Below are positions 26,380 to 31,878 of a stretch of DNA of 34,581 bases, piece by piece. The position numbers and the translations under genes were made by a program. The DNA is from an uncultured Geobacter sp. GTDB lineage: Bacteria; Desulfobacterota; Desulfuromonadia; Geobacterales; CAIOGM01. Within the stretch, counting starts at the first letter, position 1. Every line of letters begins with the position of its first letter. The DNA is taken from assembly GCA_903857795.1 (NCBI GenBank), contig CAIOGM010000159.1, positions 69,458-104,038 of the forward strand, given 5' to 3'. Under the pieces are notes generated by a model. It was not told the DNA's origin. It saw only the letters and a program-made list of their open reading frames with translations, and searched no databases.

Positions 26380-27531
26380 TCACACGGGTCGGCGCTCATC
26401 TGCCGGCCCTTTTTTTAATCTCCTTTTCCCCTCCCGAAGCCATGGACGGCGCTGCGCCAGGGAGAACCAGAGCCGGACCAGGGCGGCGGTGACTATTTTC
26501 CCTAACCAATGGTCCGTCATCCGGTGGAGATACCGGTCATACCACTCCAGGAGCGGCGTTTCTCCCTCCCCTTCCTTCCCCCTCTGCCGACAGTTCAGCC
26601 GCAGATCCAAAATATATGCCAGCTGCCAGGCATTGGCCTGAACGTAGGCGCCGATCCGGTACCAGAAGACGAGCCGTTCCCGGAGCGGGAGGAGGGCGAT
26701 CATCGCGGCAATTTCTCGGAAGAACGGCTCCAACTCCAAAGGGCGACTCCGTTCCTGTCTCAGGTAAATCCCCGAGAGGGGATCGAGGAAGCGAGGGCGG
26801 CCTGCGGCAATAAGCCCCCTGATCAGGGCGTTGAGGGTCTGGCGGGCGCGATACCCTTCGGTCTCGAACCGGCGGGGGGAGGTGAGGATCTCGGCGGGGA
26901 AGAGCAGAATTGTGCCGCAGGAGCGGATCCGTTCCGCGAGGAGCAGATCCTCGGCGACGGGGAGGGTTTCGTCGAAGGGGCCGACGCTCTCGAAGAGTAC
27001 CCTGGAAAGTAGGAGTCCCTGGTCGCCCAGGACGCAGCCGGAGCGGTCGAGCCGGGCTTTCCCCTGGCAGAACGCGTAGCCGAGGGGCGTCTCGTTGTCG
27101 CCGGTGTCGAAGCGGAGGGTGAAGCGGCCGGCGACCCGATGATGTCCGGCACACTGCACCGTCTCCTTCAGTATGGCAAGTCCCGTGCGGAGCGCCGTGG
27201 TATCGGGGAGCAGGGAGTCGGCGTGGAGGAAGAGGAGCCACTCCCCCCGGGCCGCTGCAGCTCCGGCGTTCATCTGCCGTCCCCGTCCCCGGGGAGCTGT
27301 GATCAGGGTGAGATCAAAGGGGAGGGGGCCGACGAAGCCGTTGTCTCGGGCAATGGTCCCGTCGCTGGAGCCGCCGTCGCAGAGGATCACTTCGAAAGCG
27401 CACCCCTCCTGCCGGGCCAGCATCAGCAGGAGCGGGGCGATGGTCGGCGCCTCGTTGAGAACGGGGACGATGACGGAGAGGGTCGGGGGCAAGGGAGTGC
27501 TGAGGTTTCCCACTTTTGATGTATCAATCAT
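26380..27531 (-). CDS. Family 2 glycosyltransferase
   Basis: A 383-residue GT2 enzyme. The GT-A fold is complete: LSVIVPVLNEAPTI, ILCDGGSSDGT, GRGRQMNAGAAAARGEWLLFLHADS (HAD is the metal-binding DxD-like site) and VAEDLLLAERI. The first 235 residues resemble the TIGR04283-type glycosyltransferases. The remaining 145 residues are an extra helical domain, rich in Arg and Trp, of unknown role. The sugar and acceptor are unknown. The ATG shares a base with the stop of the recombinase gene (TGATG), so it could be read from that gene, but G+C content changes sharply here and this gene belongs to the core by composition. Confidence 0.85.
   Translation of the reverse strand: MIDTSKVGNLSTPLPPTLSVIVPVLNEAPTIAPLLLMLARQEGCAFEVILCDGGSSDGTIARDNGFVGPLPFDLTLITAPRGRGRQMNAGAAAARGEWLLFLHADSLLPDTTALRTGLAILKETVQCAGHHRVAGRFTLRFDTGDNETPLGYAFCQGKARLDRSGCVLGDQGLLLSRVLFESVGPFDETLPVAEDLLLAERIRSCGTILLFPAEILTSPRRFETEGYRARQTLNALIRGLIAAGRPRFLDPLSGIYLRQERSRPLELEPFFREIAAMIALLPLRERLVFWYRIGAYVQANAWQLAYILDLRLNCRQRGKEGEGETPLLEWYDRYLHRMTDHWLGKIVTAALVRLWFSLAQRRPWLREGKRRLKKGPADERRPV
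26386..26416 (+). terminator. Rho-independent terminator of the 12-cysteine gene
   Basis: An 8-bp stem (GGGTCGGC with GCCGGCCC, one T-G pair), an 8-base loop and seven Ts. It overlaps the last codons of the convergent glycosyltransferase gene. Confidence 0.8.
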
Positions 27532-28778
27532 CAGAAATCCAACGGGCTATTCGGTTCTTTCACCGTCCTGACCGGCACACAGTGAGTGTAGATCATGGTG
27601 GTTTTCAGACTGGCGTGTCCCAGCAGGTTCTGGATGACGCGGATATCGTAGCCGGCTTGCAACAGATGGGTGGCGAAGCTGTGACGAAAAATATGCGAAG
27701 TAACCTTTTTGAGGATTTTCGCCTTGCGCACGGCATGATAAAGCGCTTCCTGAAAGTCGGACTCATGGAGATATTTTTTCTCCACTGCATCATCAAGAAA
27801 AACCTCGTCATATCCGGCAGCCAGATCTCGCTCATGCAGTTCACCCACCACCTTTATCTGTGACTTCAGTTCGGGAATAATCGATTCGGGAAGCGGCACG
27901 GTCCGGTCCTTTTTCCCTTTACCATGCACCGTCAGCATCTCTGCGTCAAAATTAAAATCCCGTACTCTCAATTGCAACCCCTCGAACAGCCGCAGTCCAC
28001 AGCCGAACAGCATTTTCACCACCAGATCATTCGGATAGGAAAGTTGCGCCAGGATTGCATCGATCTCATCGCGTGAAAGGACCGCCGGGATATACAGTGA
28101 TTTTTTCGCCCGCGGCACATCGCGCAGTTCGCCGAATTCCCTATTCAGTCCATGCCGGAAGAAAAACAGCAAGGAATTGAAGGCCTGATTCTGGGTTGAA
28201 GCTGCAACCTTGCACTTGACGGCCAGATACGTCAGATATTCCTTCACATCCACCGTTGACAGCTCTTCAGGACGCTTGTTTTTCAGAAAACGCTGGAAAT
28301 TGCGGGACCAGTTGGCGTAGGTTTTCAAGGTTTTGCGGGAATAATGACGCACTTTGATTTCATCGGTCATGGATTCCATGACCTTGTCCCATTCCGGTGA
28401 ATCTGATTGTACCTGATAGCCGGCTTCGATATAGCAGGATTTTCTTGATGATGGTATAGCTTGACTCGGTTCAGACGGTCCGGTCTCGGCCGGATGAATA
28501 TTTGGCAACACCTCTTCACGTTGCATTGTCGAGTAGAGATTTACTGCATGAGCGGCGCACAAACGCTGTTCATCGTTCTGATTCTTTTCCCGGAGTTTTT
28601 CCAGAAAAAACTGGAGTCGTTCGGACACAGACGTGTCATCCGTAATCAGATTTTTTGCGCAAAAATCCAGGTAATACCGCACCCACTTCACATATTCAGG
28701 AACGATGGCGCTATCGACAGCATTGAGTTTCAAATATCCAAGATAACGGGCATAAACGGCTTTCGGTATCAGGATCAT
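27531..28778 (-). CDS. Integron-integrase-related tyrosine recombinase
   Basis: A 415-residue tyrosine recombinase with the full catalytic set: R263 (GCGLRLFEG), K287 (GKGKK), H362 and R365 (SHIFRHSFATHLL), H388 (LLGHAS) and Y397 (MIYTH). The C-terminal part (HLLQAGYDIR, LLGHASLKTTMIYTH, final SPLD) matches integron integrases. It keeps the start of their extra segment (GYDEVFLDDAVEKKY, residues 322-336) but lacks roughly 30 residues that normally follow before the helix leading to the catalytic His. Residues 1 to about 85 look like a second SAM-like DNA-binding domain before the usual one (about 137-215). The start has AGGAGG at 28785-28790. Lower G+C than the core marks it as acquired. A XerC/D-type relative is the alternative. 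Confidence 0.85.
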   Translation of the reverse strand: MILIPKAVYARYLGYLKLNAVDSAIVPEYVKWVRYYLDFCAKNLITDDTSVSERLQFFLEKLREKNQNDEQRLCAAHAVNLYSTMQREEVLPNIHPAETGPSEPSQAIPSSRKSCYIEAGYQVQSDSPEWDKVMESMTDEIKVRHYSRKTLKTYANWSRNFQRFLKNKRPEELSTVDVKEYLTYLAVKCKVAASTQNQAFNSLLFFFRHGLNREFGELRDVPRAKKSLYIPAVLSRDEIDAILAQLSYPNDLVVKMLFGCGLRLFEGLQLRVRDFNFDAEMLTVHGKGKKDRTVPLPESIIPELKSQIKVVGELHERDLAAGYDEVFLDDAVEKKYLHESDFQEALYHAVRKAKILKKVTSHIFRHSFATHLLQAGYDIRVIQNLLGHASLKTTMIYTHCVPVRTVKEPNSPLDF

Positions 28779-29127
28779 GGAGCGCCTCCTGAAAATAAAG
28801 GAGATCTCTAAAGCCTTGGATTTAAGGTGATATTTTAATTGAATGTCGTCAAAAGTAAATGGTATAGTTCCGGGCACGAAAAGAGACGAAACTCTGGAGC
28901 AATCCATGATTGCCTGTACCACTTAAAACTGAAAAACTGACCATAAGGGGACAGGGGAGCAAGTGAACTATTGGTTGTCATTCTGAACGTAGTGAAGAAT
29001 CTGCTTCTGTTTTAAAGGCTGCCCCATGTGGCTTTGGATGGCAGACAAGAGAGAAGACGTACAACTATGGCTCAACACAGGTTCAAGTGCGGCGATTATT
29101 GCGGGGTCCATTTCTGTGTTTAAGGAT
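28779..29127. other. Gene-poor leader of the recombinase; possible attI region
   Basis: A+T-rich DNA between the recombinase and the next gene, where an integron would have its attI site and cassette promoter. I could not identify a convincing attI core. At 28978-29002 lies a short palindromic repeat (TCATTCTGAACG, then TAGTGAAGAATC), a form common in intergenic DNA of many bacteria. A plus-strand frame is open through the right half but is not protein-like before 29128. Confidence 0.45.
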
Positions 29128-29469
29128 ATGAAAACATACGCCCATCTGAAGCCTGGACAAAAGGGCACGAAGCGACTGGTGGATCAATTCGGCGCCAAGC
29201 TTTTATGCGTTCGTTATCGTTACGATGAGATCCGGCACGTAAAATTAAAGACTGTCGAAATCATTGTCAATGAAAAGCCCTGCAAACCGCCCTTGAGATA
29301 TCAGGATCATGACATGGTTGCGGTAATGGTGCCGTTCTCTGACAAAGATCTTCGTGACAGGCTAAAGGCGGCACATGGGCGATGGGATCCGGAGGAAAAG
29401 CTTTGGCGAGTGCTGTTTGGTTCCATAAAGGGCGATATCCAACTGATGGAGAGAATTGTGTCGGAGTAA
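29128..29469 (+). CDS. Conserved-looking small protein next to the recombinase
   Basis: A 113-residue basic protein beginning MKTYAHLKPGQKGTKRL, with LLCVRYRYDE, VKLKTVEIIV, and a C-terminal LRDRLKAAHGRWDPEEKLWRV that looks like a small nucleic-acid-binding or domain-of-unknown-function motif. It has the feel of a conserved protein seen near mobile elements, but I cannot name the family. The ATG at 29128 has AAGGA upstream; the frame is open further left but that part overlaps repeat DNA. It lies just outside the recombinase, pointing away from it. Confidence 0.7.
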   Translation: MKTYAHLKPGQKGTKRLVDQFGAKLLCVRYRYDEIRHVKLKTVEIIVNEKPCKPPLRYQDHDMVAVMVPFSDKDLRDRLKAAHGRWDPEEKLWRVLFGSIKGDIQLMERIVSE

Positions 29470-29486
29470 GTGAAGACAATAAGTTG

Positions 29487-29620
29487 CCTATATAGGTTGC
29501 TTTAATTTTATCAAAAAACGCCTACAAAATATGAAAAACTTCCTATATAGCCAGCTTCAATGTTCACTATATAGGTAATCGATTTCCTATATAGTGAACA
29601 AGTTTCCTATATACGGAAAC
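29487..29620. repeat. Cluster of five CCTATATAGG-type palindromes
   Basis: Five copies of CCTATATAG or its complement occur in 134 bases: 29487-29496 (perfect CCTATATAGG), 29542-29550, 29567-29575, 29586-29594 and 29606-29613. The last lies in another palindrome (GTTTCC, 7 bases, GGAAAC). The cluster sits just before the membrane-protein gene at 29653. Such spacing suits an operator, a recombinase core site or a replication-type iteron set; the sequence alone does not decide. Confidence 0.85.
29562..29599. promoter_or_regulatory. 38-base near-perfect palindrome within the CTATATAG cluster
   Basis: GTTCACTATATAGG and its exact complement flank a 10-base centre that itself contains AATCGATT. 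Only the innermost flanking pair fails to match, so nearly the whole 38 bases form a two-fold symmetric site. Confidence 0.88.
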
Positions 29621-29652
29621 CGATGATAAACGAGTTGGCTACAAAGGAAGAA

Positions 29653-30282
29653 ATGACAATCACCCCTAAGATAAGAAAGCCAAGATGGAGCATTCAAACT
29701 CATTTCTGGGCTGCATTATGTATTGTCATTTTGACAAGTTCCGTTGTTATTTTTGTCATGAAGAGAGCACTTTGGGTTGAGCTTGAGGTTGTAGTTGGGC
29801 TCGTGAGTTTTCTTCACCTAGTTTATATGTATCTGCTCGTTTACGAAGGAGTGAGAGTTAATAAGAATGAGTCCTTTAGCATTTATTGGAAGCCCTTCAA
29901 GTTTGAGAATTCAGGAATTGAGCACCTCGGGGCAGTAGACACCGGCGGAGCCTTTACAACAGCATTCGCTGAAGCCGGGCCACTAGGCTGCTTGGCCGGA
30001 GTTGTGTTAGACGTAGTTGTCTCAATATTTCTGGTAGTTATTATTGCATTTCTGCTCTGGCTAGGAATGAATGTCATAACAAGTGGAATTTTAATCCTAT
30101 CCCTGCCAATTTTCATTCTTTTCAAACACAGCTTAAGAGTTGCAATAGCTAAAGGTAGAACTTGTCAAGGAAACTCCAGTAAATCTATATTATATGCTGC
30201 CTGGTCAACCATTATAAATATGACGTGGCTGTATGTAGTTGTATATCTGGGGCATTGTTTGCACGACTGGCTGAAAAGATAG
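29653..30282 (+). CDS. Membrane protein of the first cassette-like unit
   Basis: A 209-residue protein with about five hydrophobic helices (residues about 15-35, 40-65, 110-140, 142-165 and 180-200). No family was recognised. A loop with HLGAVDTGGAFTTAFAEAGPLG (residues about 90-112) is the most distinctive part. The ATG at 29653 has an AAGGA site; an in-frame ATG at 29623 lacks one and lies against the palindrome cluster. The stop codon is only three bases before an attC-like site, the normal layout of an integron cassette. Confidence 0.68.
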   Translation: MTITPKIRKPRWSIQTHFWAALCIVILTSSVVIFVMKRALWVELEVVVGLVSFLHLVYMYLLVYEGVRVNKNESFSIYWKPFKFENSGIEHLGAVDTGGAFTTAFAEAGPLGCLAGVVLDVVVSIFLVVIIAFLLWLGMNVITSGILILSLPIFILFKHSLRVAIAKGRTCQGNSSKSILYAAWSTIINMTWLYVVVYLGHCLHDWLKR

Positions 30283-30285
30283 AGG

Positions 30286-30345
30286 CGCCAACAAGGCGGC
30301 GGCACTCAGACGCTGACGCGCTGGTGCGCCCCAGCGACGTTAGTT
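30286..30345 (+). other. attC-like site 1
   Basis: Outer boxes GCCAAC (30287-30292) and GTTAGTT (30339-30345) frame a fold in which GGCG-G-CAC (30298-30305) pairs with GTGCGCC (30324-30330), leaving one G unpaired in the left arm, as in integron attC sites with their extrahelical base. R' departs from GTTRRRY at the sixth base. The next 9 bases (CAAAACCAG) also follow attC-like site 2. Confidence 0.6.
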
Positions 30346-30409
30346 CAAAACCAGAAAAGACAAAAACTAAGAAAACTAATGCTATAACAATGCAAATTAA
30401 GGAGGTTCT

Positions 30410-30856
30410 ATGTCACTTCACAAAGAAACAGTTGGGCTTGCAGGTGAATATGCAGTTGCGAGTGAATTATGTAAACGTGGTATGTATACACAGTTGACGC
30501 TCGGGAACAAAAAGCGAACCGATTTGCTTGTTGAGGTCGGTGATAACTTCATTAAGGTTGAGGTTAAGAGCAAGCAAGAAGGTACATGGCCTGCGGTGAA
30601 AGGAATATCGAGAGAAAATTACTTGCTGGTATTCGTTGATTTTCAAGATAAGAAACCTGAAGAAAGACCAGATTTTTACATCCTATCTGTTGCAGACTGG
30701 AAAAAGCTTGTCATCATAAAGTCAAAGAAAGACCCAACGATGGTTATTGACAAAGATTCTGTTCCCACTTGGCCAGGTATCTCTTGGAAAGGCATTGGTG
30801 TTAAACCTGAAAATATAAGTAAATTTAAAGAAAAATGGGATAAGTTCAGTTTTTAA
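30410..30856 (+). CDS. PD-(D/E)XK-like nuclease family protein
   Basis: A 148-residue protein with the arrangement of PD-(D/E)XK nucleases: E in GLAGEYAVASELCKRG (residue about 13), the acidic D in KKRTDLLVEV (about 37), and the E-x-K in VEVKSK (about 50-52). Proteins of this size and shape include restriction-like endonucleases and Holliday-junction resolvases found in mobile DNA. The start has AAGGAGG. It begins about 65 bases after attC-like site 1, so it is the gene of the second cassette-like unit. Its target and any partner are unknown. Confidence 0.75.
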   Translation: MSLHKETVGLAGEYAVASELCKRGMYTQLTLGNKKRTDLLVEVGDNFIKVEVKSKQEGTWPAVKGISRENYLLVFVDFQDKKPEERPDFYILSVADWKKLVIIKSKKDPTMVIDKDSVPTWPGISWKGIGVKPENISKFKEKWDKFSF

Positions 30857-31171
30857 CAATTTGCTAAAGTTTCAAGAAAGAGGAAGTGTGATTATCGCAT
30901 GGTCGTAGGGATAAGGAGCGTGAGGGGTCGGAGCGTGAGGGGTCGCGTCTACAAATTTCAAATTTAATCGTTGGTTCTTTGGGGGTCAAGTCAAACTGAC
31001 AAATCGTAATTATGAGGCAAGTTTCCATTCTTAACACTATTTACGACCTTAACAGCATGTTCTTGAAGGTAAAATAGGGTCTTTAAGAGTATCACGACAA
31101 ACAAAGATCCAACCAAGGGGGATGCGGGGACAACCTTTCATTCCCCTATTAAACGAAAGAAGAAAAACAAT
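30857..31171. other. Gap with a 15-base tandem repeat, no gene supported
   Basis: The only clear structure is GGAGCGTGAGGGGTC repeated head to tail at 30915-30929 and 30930-30944, followed by CGTCTACAAATTTC. G-rich pieces (AGGGGTC, GGGGACA) of the kind seen in REP-type repeats recur here, near 28945 and near 32380. No gene is supported. Confidence 0.5.
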
Positions 31172-31229
31172 TTCCAACAAGCGGCTGGACCGGCCGAAAA
31201 GACGCCGGTCAGCCTTACGACCGTTGGTT
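31172..31229 (+). other. attC-like site 2
   Basis: Outer boxes TTCCAAC (31172-31178) and GTTGGTT (31223-31229) pair over CCAAC/GTTGG. Inside, GGCTGGACCGGC (31183-31194) pairs with GCCGGTCAGCC (31204-31214) over 11 pairs, with one G left over in the left arm. This is the fold of an integron attC site in the same orientation as site 1. The bases after it repeat CAAAACCAG. Confidence 0.66.
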
Positions 31230-31407
31230 CAAAACCAGCGGAGGAGGTGGCGCTAGCGGAGTTGCTCGAATCAAGGAGTTGGTGGTGTCGTCTGTATCGC
31301 GGAAAAATCGGAAAAATCTGTAAGGTCGAATTTGTCACCAAGACAAAGACTCCGTCTTGGTGTTCAACTGTATTCCTCGGAGTCAACGAAAAAAAATAGG
31401 AGGTAAT

Positions 31408-31780
31408 ATGAAAAAGTGGTATGTAGTTGTTAGTATTATCACAACTGGTTGCTTGTTCAAAGAGTGCACCCAAATGCGGTGACAGCAAAACAAAGGATTT
31501 AGTTATCGAGATACTCACAGACAATGGTTATAAAAGCGATGAGTTTACTAATAAAGTTTTGAGAGTAGATGCTATAAGAACTTCAGGTGTCGATAAAGAT
31601 ACTGGCAAGAATAGCTGTGAAGGAAAATTAATTGTCGAAAATACAGTTATAAAACCACGTGGGTGGGCTTGGCTTGGTGAAAAAGATAGCGTGGGTTATA
31701 AAAGTACAGACGAAAAGAATATCCAATTCACCTCAGAGCTTACATCAGAAGGAAAACACTATGTGTCTATAAGAAGATAA
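31408..31780 (+). pseudogene. Small lipoprotein gene with an apparent frameshift in its signal peptide
   Basis: A strong ribosome site (AGGAGG) and ATG at 31408 open MKKWYVVV, but this frame stops after 24 codons. In the next frame, open from 31427, is LVLSQLVAC, a lipobox, then SKSAPKCGDSKTKDLV and about 100 residues ending at 31780. Removing one base near 31425-31431 would join them into a normal lipoprotein of about 123 residues. The gene may be broken, may start weakly at a TTG (31427), or the sequence may have an error. The mature protein family is not recognised. Confidence 0.65.
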
Positions 31781-31812
31781 TATAGGATATTGTTTTTATT
31801 GATATTTATGTT

Positions 31813-31848
31813 AAAAAGTCATAACTATCATAACAGTTATGACTTTTT
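31813..31848. terminator. Perfect bidirectional hairpin terminator
   Basis: A 14-bp perfect stem (AAAAAGTCATAACT with its complement) and an 8-base loop, with Ts on both strands. It separates the convergent lipoprotein and membrane-protein genes. Confidence 0.85.
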
Positions 31849-31878
31849 AATTATCTTACGATTAAATTTCTCACTCAT

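Follow-up and report, generated by a model that had tools for sequence, protein, structure and literature searches.

The window, the whole 34,581-nucleotide stretch of DNA analysed here, is best explained, with good confidence, as a sedentary chromosomal integron of the Geobacterales long-IntI type whose sole integrase underwent a recent 93-bp in-frame deletion and is probably crippled. The deletion is found in this genome alone and affects the segment with which integron integrases hold folded attC sites. The integron itself has ordinary attC sites and an attI preceded by evenly spaced palindromes, which track a small neighbouring gene rather than the integrase.

An integron integrase by descent

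The intI-type gene lies on the minus strand (27531–28778) and encodes a member of the long-IntI clade of 415 aa, in agreement with the limits first assigned to it in the preliminary description. Its ATG start codon (28776–28778) is preceded by AGGAGG at 28785–28790 (plus-strand numbering); a GTG further upstream would allow for a product of 463 aa, and conservation among the relatives begins at the ATG of the 415-aa form. The product matches TIGR02249, the NCBI integron-integrase model, with 288.9 bits as a single protein and 291.8 bits in the genome search (cut-off 265), the match being split into two pieces with a hole between them. It contains a normal IntI core-binding domain (28131–28379, minus strand; Pfam PF13495, 4.1e-27) and a tyrosine recombinase catalytic domain (27582–28082, minus strand; Pfam PF00589, 1.6e-34). 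All the catalytic motifs of the proposed IntI-like active site could be located, and the R-K-H-R-H-Y set is complete (R263 in CGLRLFE, K in GKGKK at 286–290, H362–R365, H388 and Y397).

The protein is an IntI by descent. A maximum likelihood tree inferred from the core-binding and catalytic domains placed it as sister (100/99) to the intact enzyme of locus L004, its closest relative, from the same genus. Both are within the long-IntI clade (96/99) on the IntI side of the tree (100/100). An Enterococcus phage integrase and the two Xer proteins fall outside IntI (100/100), so that the protein groups with IntI and not with Xer or phage enzymes. It is the sole IntI of its genome, which has two Xer-type recombinases as separate proteins.

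Cassettes and attC sites

An attI core identified by comparison (see below) adjoins two attC sites, detected with a covariance model trained on 21 attC sites from other loci; both attC-like sites noticed previously were thus recovered. Site 1 (30286–30345; 27.8 bits, E 2e-5) has the minus strand as its recombinogenic strand; site 2 (31171–31229, minus strand; 45.3 bits, E 5.7e-10) is canonical, with an extrahelical base, and was supported by an independent stem scan whose highest threshold was reached in none of 20 shuffles. The first cassette gene (29653–30282, plus strand) is an ORF for a predicted membrane protein with no Pfam match, and the second (30410–30856, plus strand) is weakly PD-(D/E)XK-like (PF11645, 1.6e-4, below the cut-off). 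The array is visible up to the end of the window, which coincides with the end of the contig, and Rfam yielded zero matches within the window. Long IntI genes adjoin ordinary attC arrays in the relatives as well, indicating that the long IntI is part of a normal cassette system.

The same GTTCAAAACCAG follows both attC sites (30341–30354 and 31225–31238), beyond the usual R box, so that the two following cassettes start with identical bases. The lipoprotein-like frame of cassette 3 (31405–31780) shows an apparent frameshift near the signal peptide (MKKWYVVVSIITTGC... followed, in another frame, by ...LVACSKSAPKCGDSK), and a terminator-like, perfect 16-bp inverted repeat with a loop of 8 nt is found 3' of it, at 31811–31850. 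A third, isolated attC site occurs elsewhere in the genome (G000:C123:67301-67359, equivalent to L124:1501-1559; 39.1 bits), and represents a cassette once inserted outside the integron. It closely resembles site 2 of the window, and its surroundings contain no obvious array.

A predicted attI with phased palindromes and a partner gene

The predicted attI core, CCGATGATAAACGAG^TTGGCT, occupies positions 29620–29640 of the plus strand, with the crossover GTT at 29634–29636. Its consensus is CTAACCGGT(C/G)A(A/T)TAACGAG^TTRRRY; beyond this conserved motif the relatives diverge into unrelated sequence, which fits an attI followed by cassettes.

Upstream of the core, CCTATATAG occurs five times in the window, always within 29487–29594, where 0.06 occurrences are expected, and the folding of the palindrome region is unusually stable (z = -5.6 / -7.4). 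The palindromes, taken without strand, form four boxes at 29602–29619, 29582–29599, 29562–29579 and 29538–29555 (boxes 1 to 4), centred 23, 43, 63 and 87–88 nt before the GTT, and a palindrome search revealed an outlying one, GTTGCCTATATAGGTTGC, at 29483–29500. Among 36 distinct loci with the partner gene described below, dyad scores show the 120 bp that precede the crossover to be more palindromic than their dinucleotide shuffles (mean z 3.2; 31 of 36 above 2), with boxes of about 18 bp placed there in a fixed register. Pooled over loci, the profile has its maxima 33, 53, 73 and 98 nt from the GTT and shows mid-box symmetry at 43 and 63. In the window and in some relatives the register is 23, 43, 63 and 88, one helical turn nearer. 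Strict counting of palindrome families, ill suited to imperfect boxes, gave a weak signal. The palindromes are real attI-associated boxes and part of the integron platform, as had been suspected, but are better assigned to the partner gene than to the integrase. Ten Geobacterales loci with a long IntI and no partner gene have the attI core and lack the boxes (Mann-Whitney p = 5e-6). In Geobacterales we observed a second type of attI, upstream of intI (L006, L010, L022, L027, L036, L042, L044, L046, L047 and L050), without partner or boxes and with its own partly conserved leader (TTGGCCAAT..., GTTACGTCAA, GGATCTGATCAATAACGAGTT).

The partner is a small conserved gene (29128–29469, plus strand; 113 aa, MKTYAHLKPGQKGTKRLV...), recognized from its homologues beside intI. 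Of the 91 loci for which upstream sequence exists, 29 have a homologue adjoining intI in divergent orientation, and almost all of these 29 are from Geobacterales. Homologues are present in 65 of the 146 genomes of the class. The C-terminal part is weakly DUF5710-like: the domain was matched in 13 of 13 partners, that of the window scoring below the cut-off. A fold search with a model of the partner returned nothing significant, and no relative was found by sequence among solved structures. The partner, the boxes and the attI core also appear together at loci with no intI within several kb (L196, L198–L203), some of them with attC-like sites downstream. Partner, phased palindromes and attI core (e.g. 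L127–L156) look like a module in its own right. We found no description of it in the open-access literature searched, and this attachment-site module of a small gene and evenly spaced palindromes is apparently undescribed.

Box sequences vary between lineages, and the distances among them correlate with those among partners (Mantel r 0.62, p 0.0005; r 0.65 in a repeat). This coefficient was 0.41 with a single register, which mis-centred one group, and increased to 0.62 with two registers, so it includes some analyst freedom. The correlation of the boxes with the N-terminal domain of IntI was weak (0.33) and dropped to -0.001 once the partner was accounted for, and there was no correlation (0.10) with the catalytic domain. 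Since the boxes covary with the partner and not independently with the integrase, the simplest inference from these comparisons is that the partner binds the boxes, and its product is most likely what would occupy these putative accessory attI sites. The partner and the N-terminal domain of IntI also covary (r 0.53 with the catalytic domain controlled for). Third codon positions, however, correlate with the partner as well (0.465 at residues 49–92 and 0.09 at residues 93–135, in 463-aa numbering), and of the whole of intI it is the 5' end that lies closest to the partner; linkage may thus account for the correlation, which could reflect contact or merely physical linkage, and we claim no interaction.

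The palindromes might instead be operators of the partner or of a cassette promoter and no part of the recombination site, a reading compatible with any of those considered here for the integrase and to which we give somewhat less than an even chance. They do occupy the stretch that separates the partner gene from the first cassette, and are kept at partner loci without a nearby intI; nevertheless, their register is fixed to the attI crossover (23/43/63/88 or 33/53/73/98 nt) despite different box sequences, something that a plain operator would not need. More speculatively, the partner may bind the four boxes, about two helical turns apart, and dock the N-terminal domain of the long IntI, acting as an accessory protein at the attI of Geobacterales; the window would then keep its attI machinery even though its IntI lost the attC pocket. 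We regard this fuller scheme as possible but rather doubtful.

The extra N-terminal domain

Residues 1–89 of the integrase (28512–28778, minus strand) form an extra domain that is most likely a duplicated core-binding domain, the second SAM-like one in the protein. This is suggested jointly by Pfam matches, structural models and a profile comparison. Of 56 aligned N-terminal domains, 52 match PF13495 (Phage_int_SAM_4; best 8.9e-11), the window copy alone giving no match; AlphaFold2 predicts four helices (pLDDT 87); the best-probability Foldseek matches of this model are to Cre (probability 0.75–0.77, TM 0.61–0.64, with E values that are not significant); and the profile comparison with the normal core-binding domain gave an E of 2e-4, with a probability of only 47%. 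The extension consists of a conserved fold of 87–89 aa and a variable linker of around 45 aa, so that the previous estimate of about 85 residues is right for the fold and too short for the whole extension, of about 130.

A gene fusion of approximately 120 aa was already reported by Nemergut et al. 2008 (PMC2426708) for an IntI clade including Geobacter, and the window IntI carries this clade-wide extension. The domain could be aligned in 80 of the 92 sequences; its carriers belong to Geobacterales, Desulfobulbales, Nitrospirota, anammox Planctomycetes and others, and include relatives with the full IntI-specific segment. It is, hence, standard for the clade, unrelated to the deletion and no replacement for the lost segment.

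The deletion and the residues lost

The preliminary description estimated that some 30 residues are missing from the IntI-specific segment, and comparison with the L004 protein sets the figure at exactly 31, absent after VEKKY. These are equivalent to P211–H241 of VchIntIA (numbering through the alignment of L004 and 2A3V) and, as anticipated, belong to the segment that grips folded attC sites by contacting extrahelical bases. The gap takes out the positions of W219, P232, H240 and H241, and leaves the equivalents of K209 and Y210. In the VchIntIA structure, P232, H240 and H241 hold the extrahelical base T12'', and W219, with Q145, W157, K209 and Y210, contacts G20'' (PMC3053210). In the intact clade members the P232 position is A or E and that of H240 is W, Y or F, so their grip is already somewhat unlike that of VchIntIA; overall, their segment (QWFFPQ..LT....RRRYHLHE) is strongly conserved. 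The window protein lacks the complete segment for holding the extrahelical bases of folded attC, and we therefore file it as a deletion derivative of IntI and not as a functional member.

The IntI of a working relative binds attC as a folded bottom strand, holds the extrahelical bases with the region that extends from the alpha-I2 helix to beta-4,5, and recombines attC with attI. In the window IntI, the catalytic residues and both core-binding domains remain, and the T12'' pocket (positions P232, H240 and H241) and the contact of the W219 equivalent to G20'' are gone with the segment. Judging from the residues lost, we infer that the capture and excision of attC cassettes are abolished or severely reduced, and that the array, with its two linked attC sites and the one isolated elsewhere, is probably frozen.

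At the DNA level, 93 bp were lost in frame relative to L004. Comparison with L004 and others places the junction after Y336 and before L337, where one copy of an ATC(C/T)CCATG direct repeat remains (27764–27773, minus strand). The junction reads AAATATCTCCATGAG, and in L004 the ends of the extra 93 bp are ATATCCCCATG (left) and CATCTTCATGA (right), an imperfect direct repeat of around 9 bp marking both ends, as in slippage deletions. The remainder of the gene is under purifying selection: dN/dS against L004 is 0.055 upstream of the junction and 0.108 downstream, in the catalytic parts, and only one of 102 near-invariant columns is changed (G325E, beside the junction). These low values and the scarcity of such changes make the deletion look recent.

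IntI pseudogenes are common; a 2008 survey put their share at roughly one third (PMC2426708). Congener G001 has no IntI, and congener G003 contains two intI copies wrecked by internal deletions, one of them frameshifted. The breaks in these copies (L030; L204:2453-2976) occur at residue 382 (463-aa numbering), adjoining the junction of the window, in an A-rich GAGAAAAAATATC, which suggests that this area is a recurrent deletion endpoint. In L031, the 5' part of intI is apparently fused in frame to antitoxin-like sequence, a possible insertion within intI.

A gap private to one genome

The gap is present in none of the 91 aligned relatives. A search with a junction-spanning fragment against a 297-genome sample of the phylum produced, among the matches listed (56 other genomes), none crossing the junction, and all listed matches of other genomes begin at query residues 34–49. 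A search for the IntI family in the genomes of 58 relatives found over-threshold IntI in 30 of them, and the profile gap at 206–237 only in this genome.

The intact frame and the conserved rest of the protein would be compatible, too, with a functional protein whose substrate use has changed. One such protein would keep partial activity, for instance on double-stranded attI-type sites in an Xer-like manner, and have lost only the use of single-stranded attC. The catalytic and core-binding domains are indeed intact, and the Xer-type recombinases in the same alignment also lack the segment, but we consider this improbable: the lost stretch holds conserved residues of the fold, and the additional domain of IntI is needed for activity according to work cited in PMC3053210.

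The preliminary description suggested that this may be a distinct class of IntI, perhaps recognizing its sites through the palindromes; in its fuller form, this reading has a functional class that dispenses with the extrahelical-base pocket and uses the N-terminal domain as well. The open frame, the conserved catalytic residues, the purifying selection, the DNA-binding-like N-terminal domain and the fixed register of the palindromes adjoining attI are all in keeping with it. Nevertheless, a new class would show its gap in several independent genomes, and this one is private to a single genome and looks like a recent slippage deletion, which rules out a distinct class as the leading view. Besides, the N-terminal domain is also found on relatives with the full segment and on relatives without boxes, box sequence has no correlation with it given the partner, and the attC sites are ordinary, all of which leaves the proposal very unlikely. 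Least credible of all is an assembly or sequencing artefact absent from the organism, since, even if the genome is a draft of 179 contigs, the imperfect repeat of only about 9 bp is too short for an assembly collapse, the reading frame is exactly kept and the rest of the gene is clean.

Comparison with known systems

The enzymes examined here are very probably those of clade 15 of Nemergut et al. 2008 (PMC2426708), an identification made from taxon and size and not from the sequences of that clade: both are from the same taxon (Deltaproteobacteria, including Geobacter) and carry the same fusion of about 120 aa, and the window copy differs in lacking 31 residues of the IntI-specific segment. 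To the 2008 description we add the identification of the fused part as a second SAM-like domain, most likely a duplicate, and its occurrence in Nitrospirota, anammox Planctomycetes and others.

The closest solved structure is that of VchIntIA/IntI4 (PDB 2A3V; 5e-54), which has the core-binding and catalytic domains in common with the window protein but possesses the P211–H241 segment and lacks the extra N-terminal domain. Likewise, IntI1, from class 1 integrons, shows 38% identity over residues 180–462 and catalytic motifs identical in kind, but has the full additional domain and no N-terminal extra domain. XerC and XerD share the tyrosine recombinase fold and also lack the IntI segment, but the tree places them outside IntI (100/100) and the window protein inside. 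Because the attC-gripping segment was lost with the catalytic core otherwise intact, the window integrase is a clean natural experiment that could separate attC from attI recognition.

Lambda-type integrases have an arm-binding domain and arm sites, and the added N-terminal domain and the accessory sites near the core suggest, by analogy, a comparable architecture. However, the added domain is of the SAM-like core-binding type, and covariation points to the partner, and not to IntI, as the probable box binder. To our knowledge, IntI is the only protein that binds the attI sites studied so far, and it does so at simple repeats; if the partner does act at the attI boxes, the attI complex of these bacteria would be unlike that of any studied integron, and cassette capture in a large environmental lineage would be subject to a new level of control, exerted through a conserved accessory gene and its phased palindromes.
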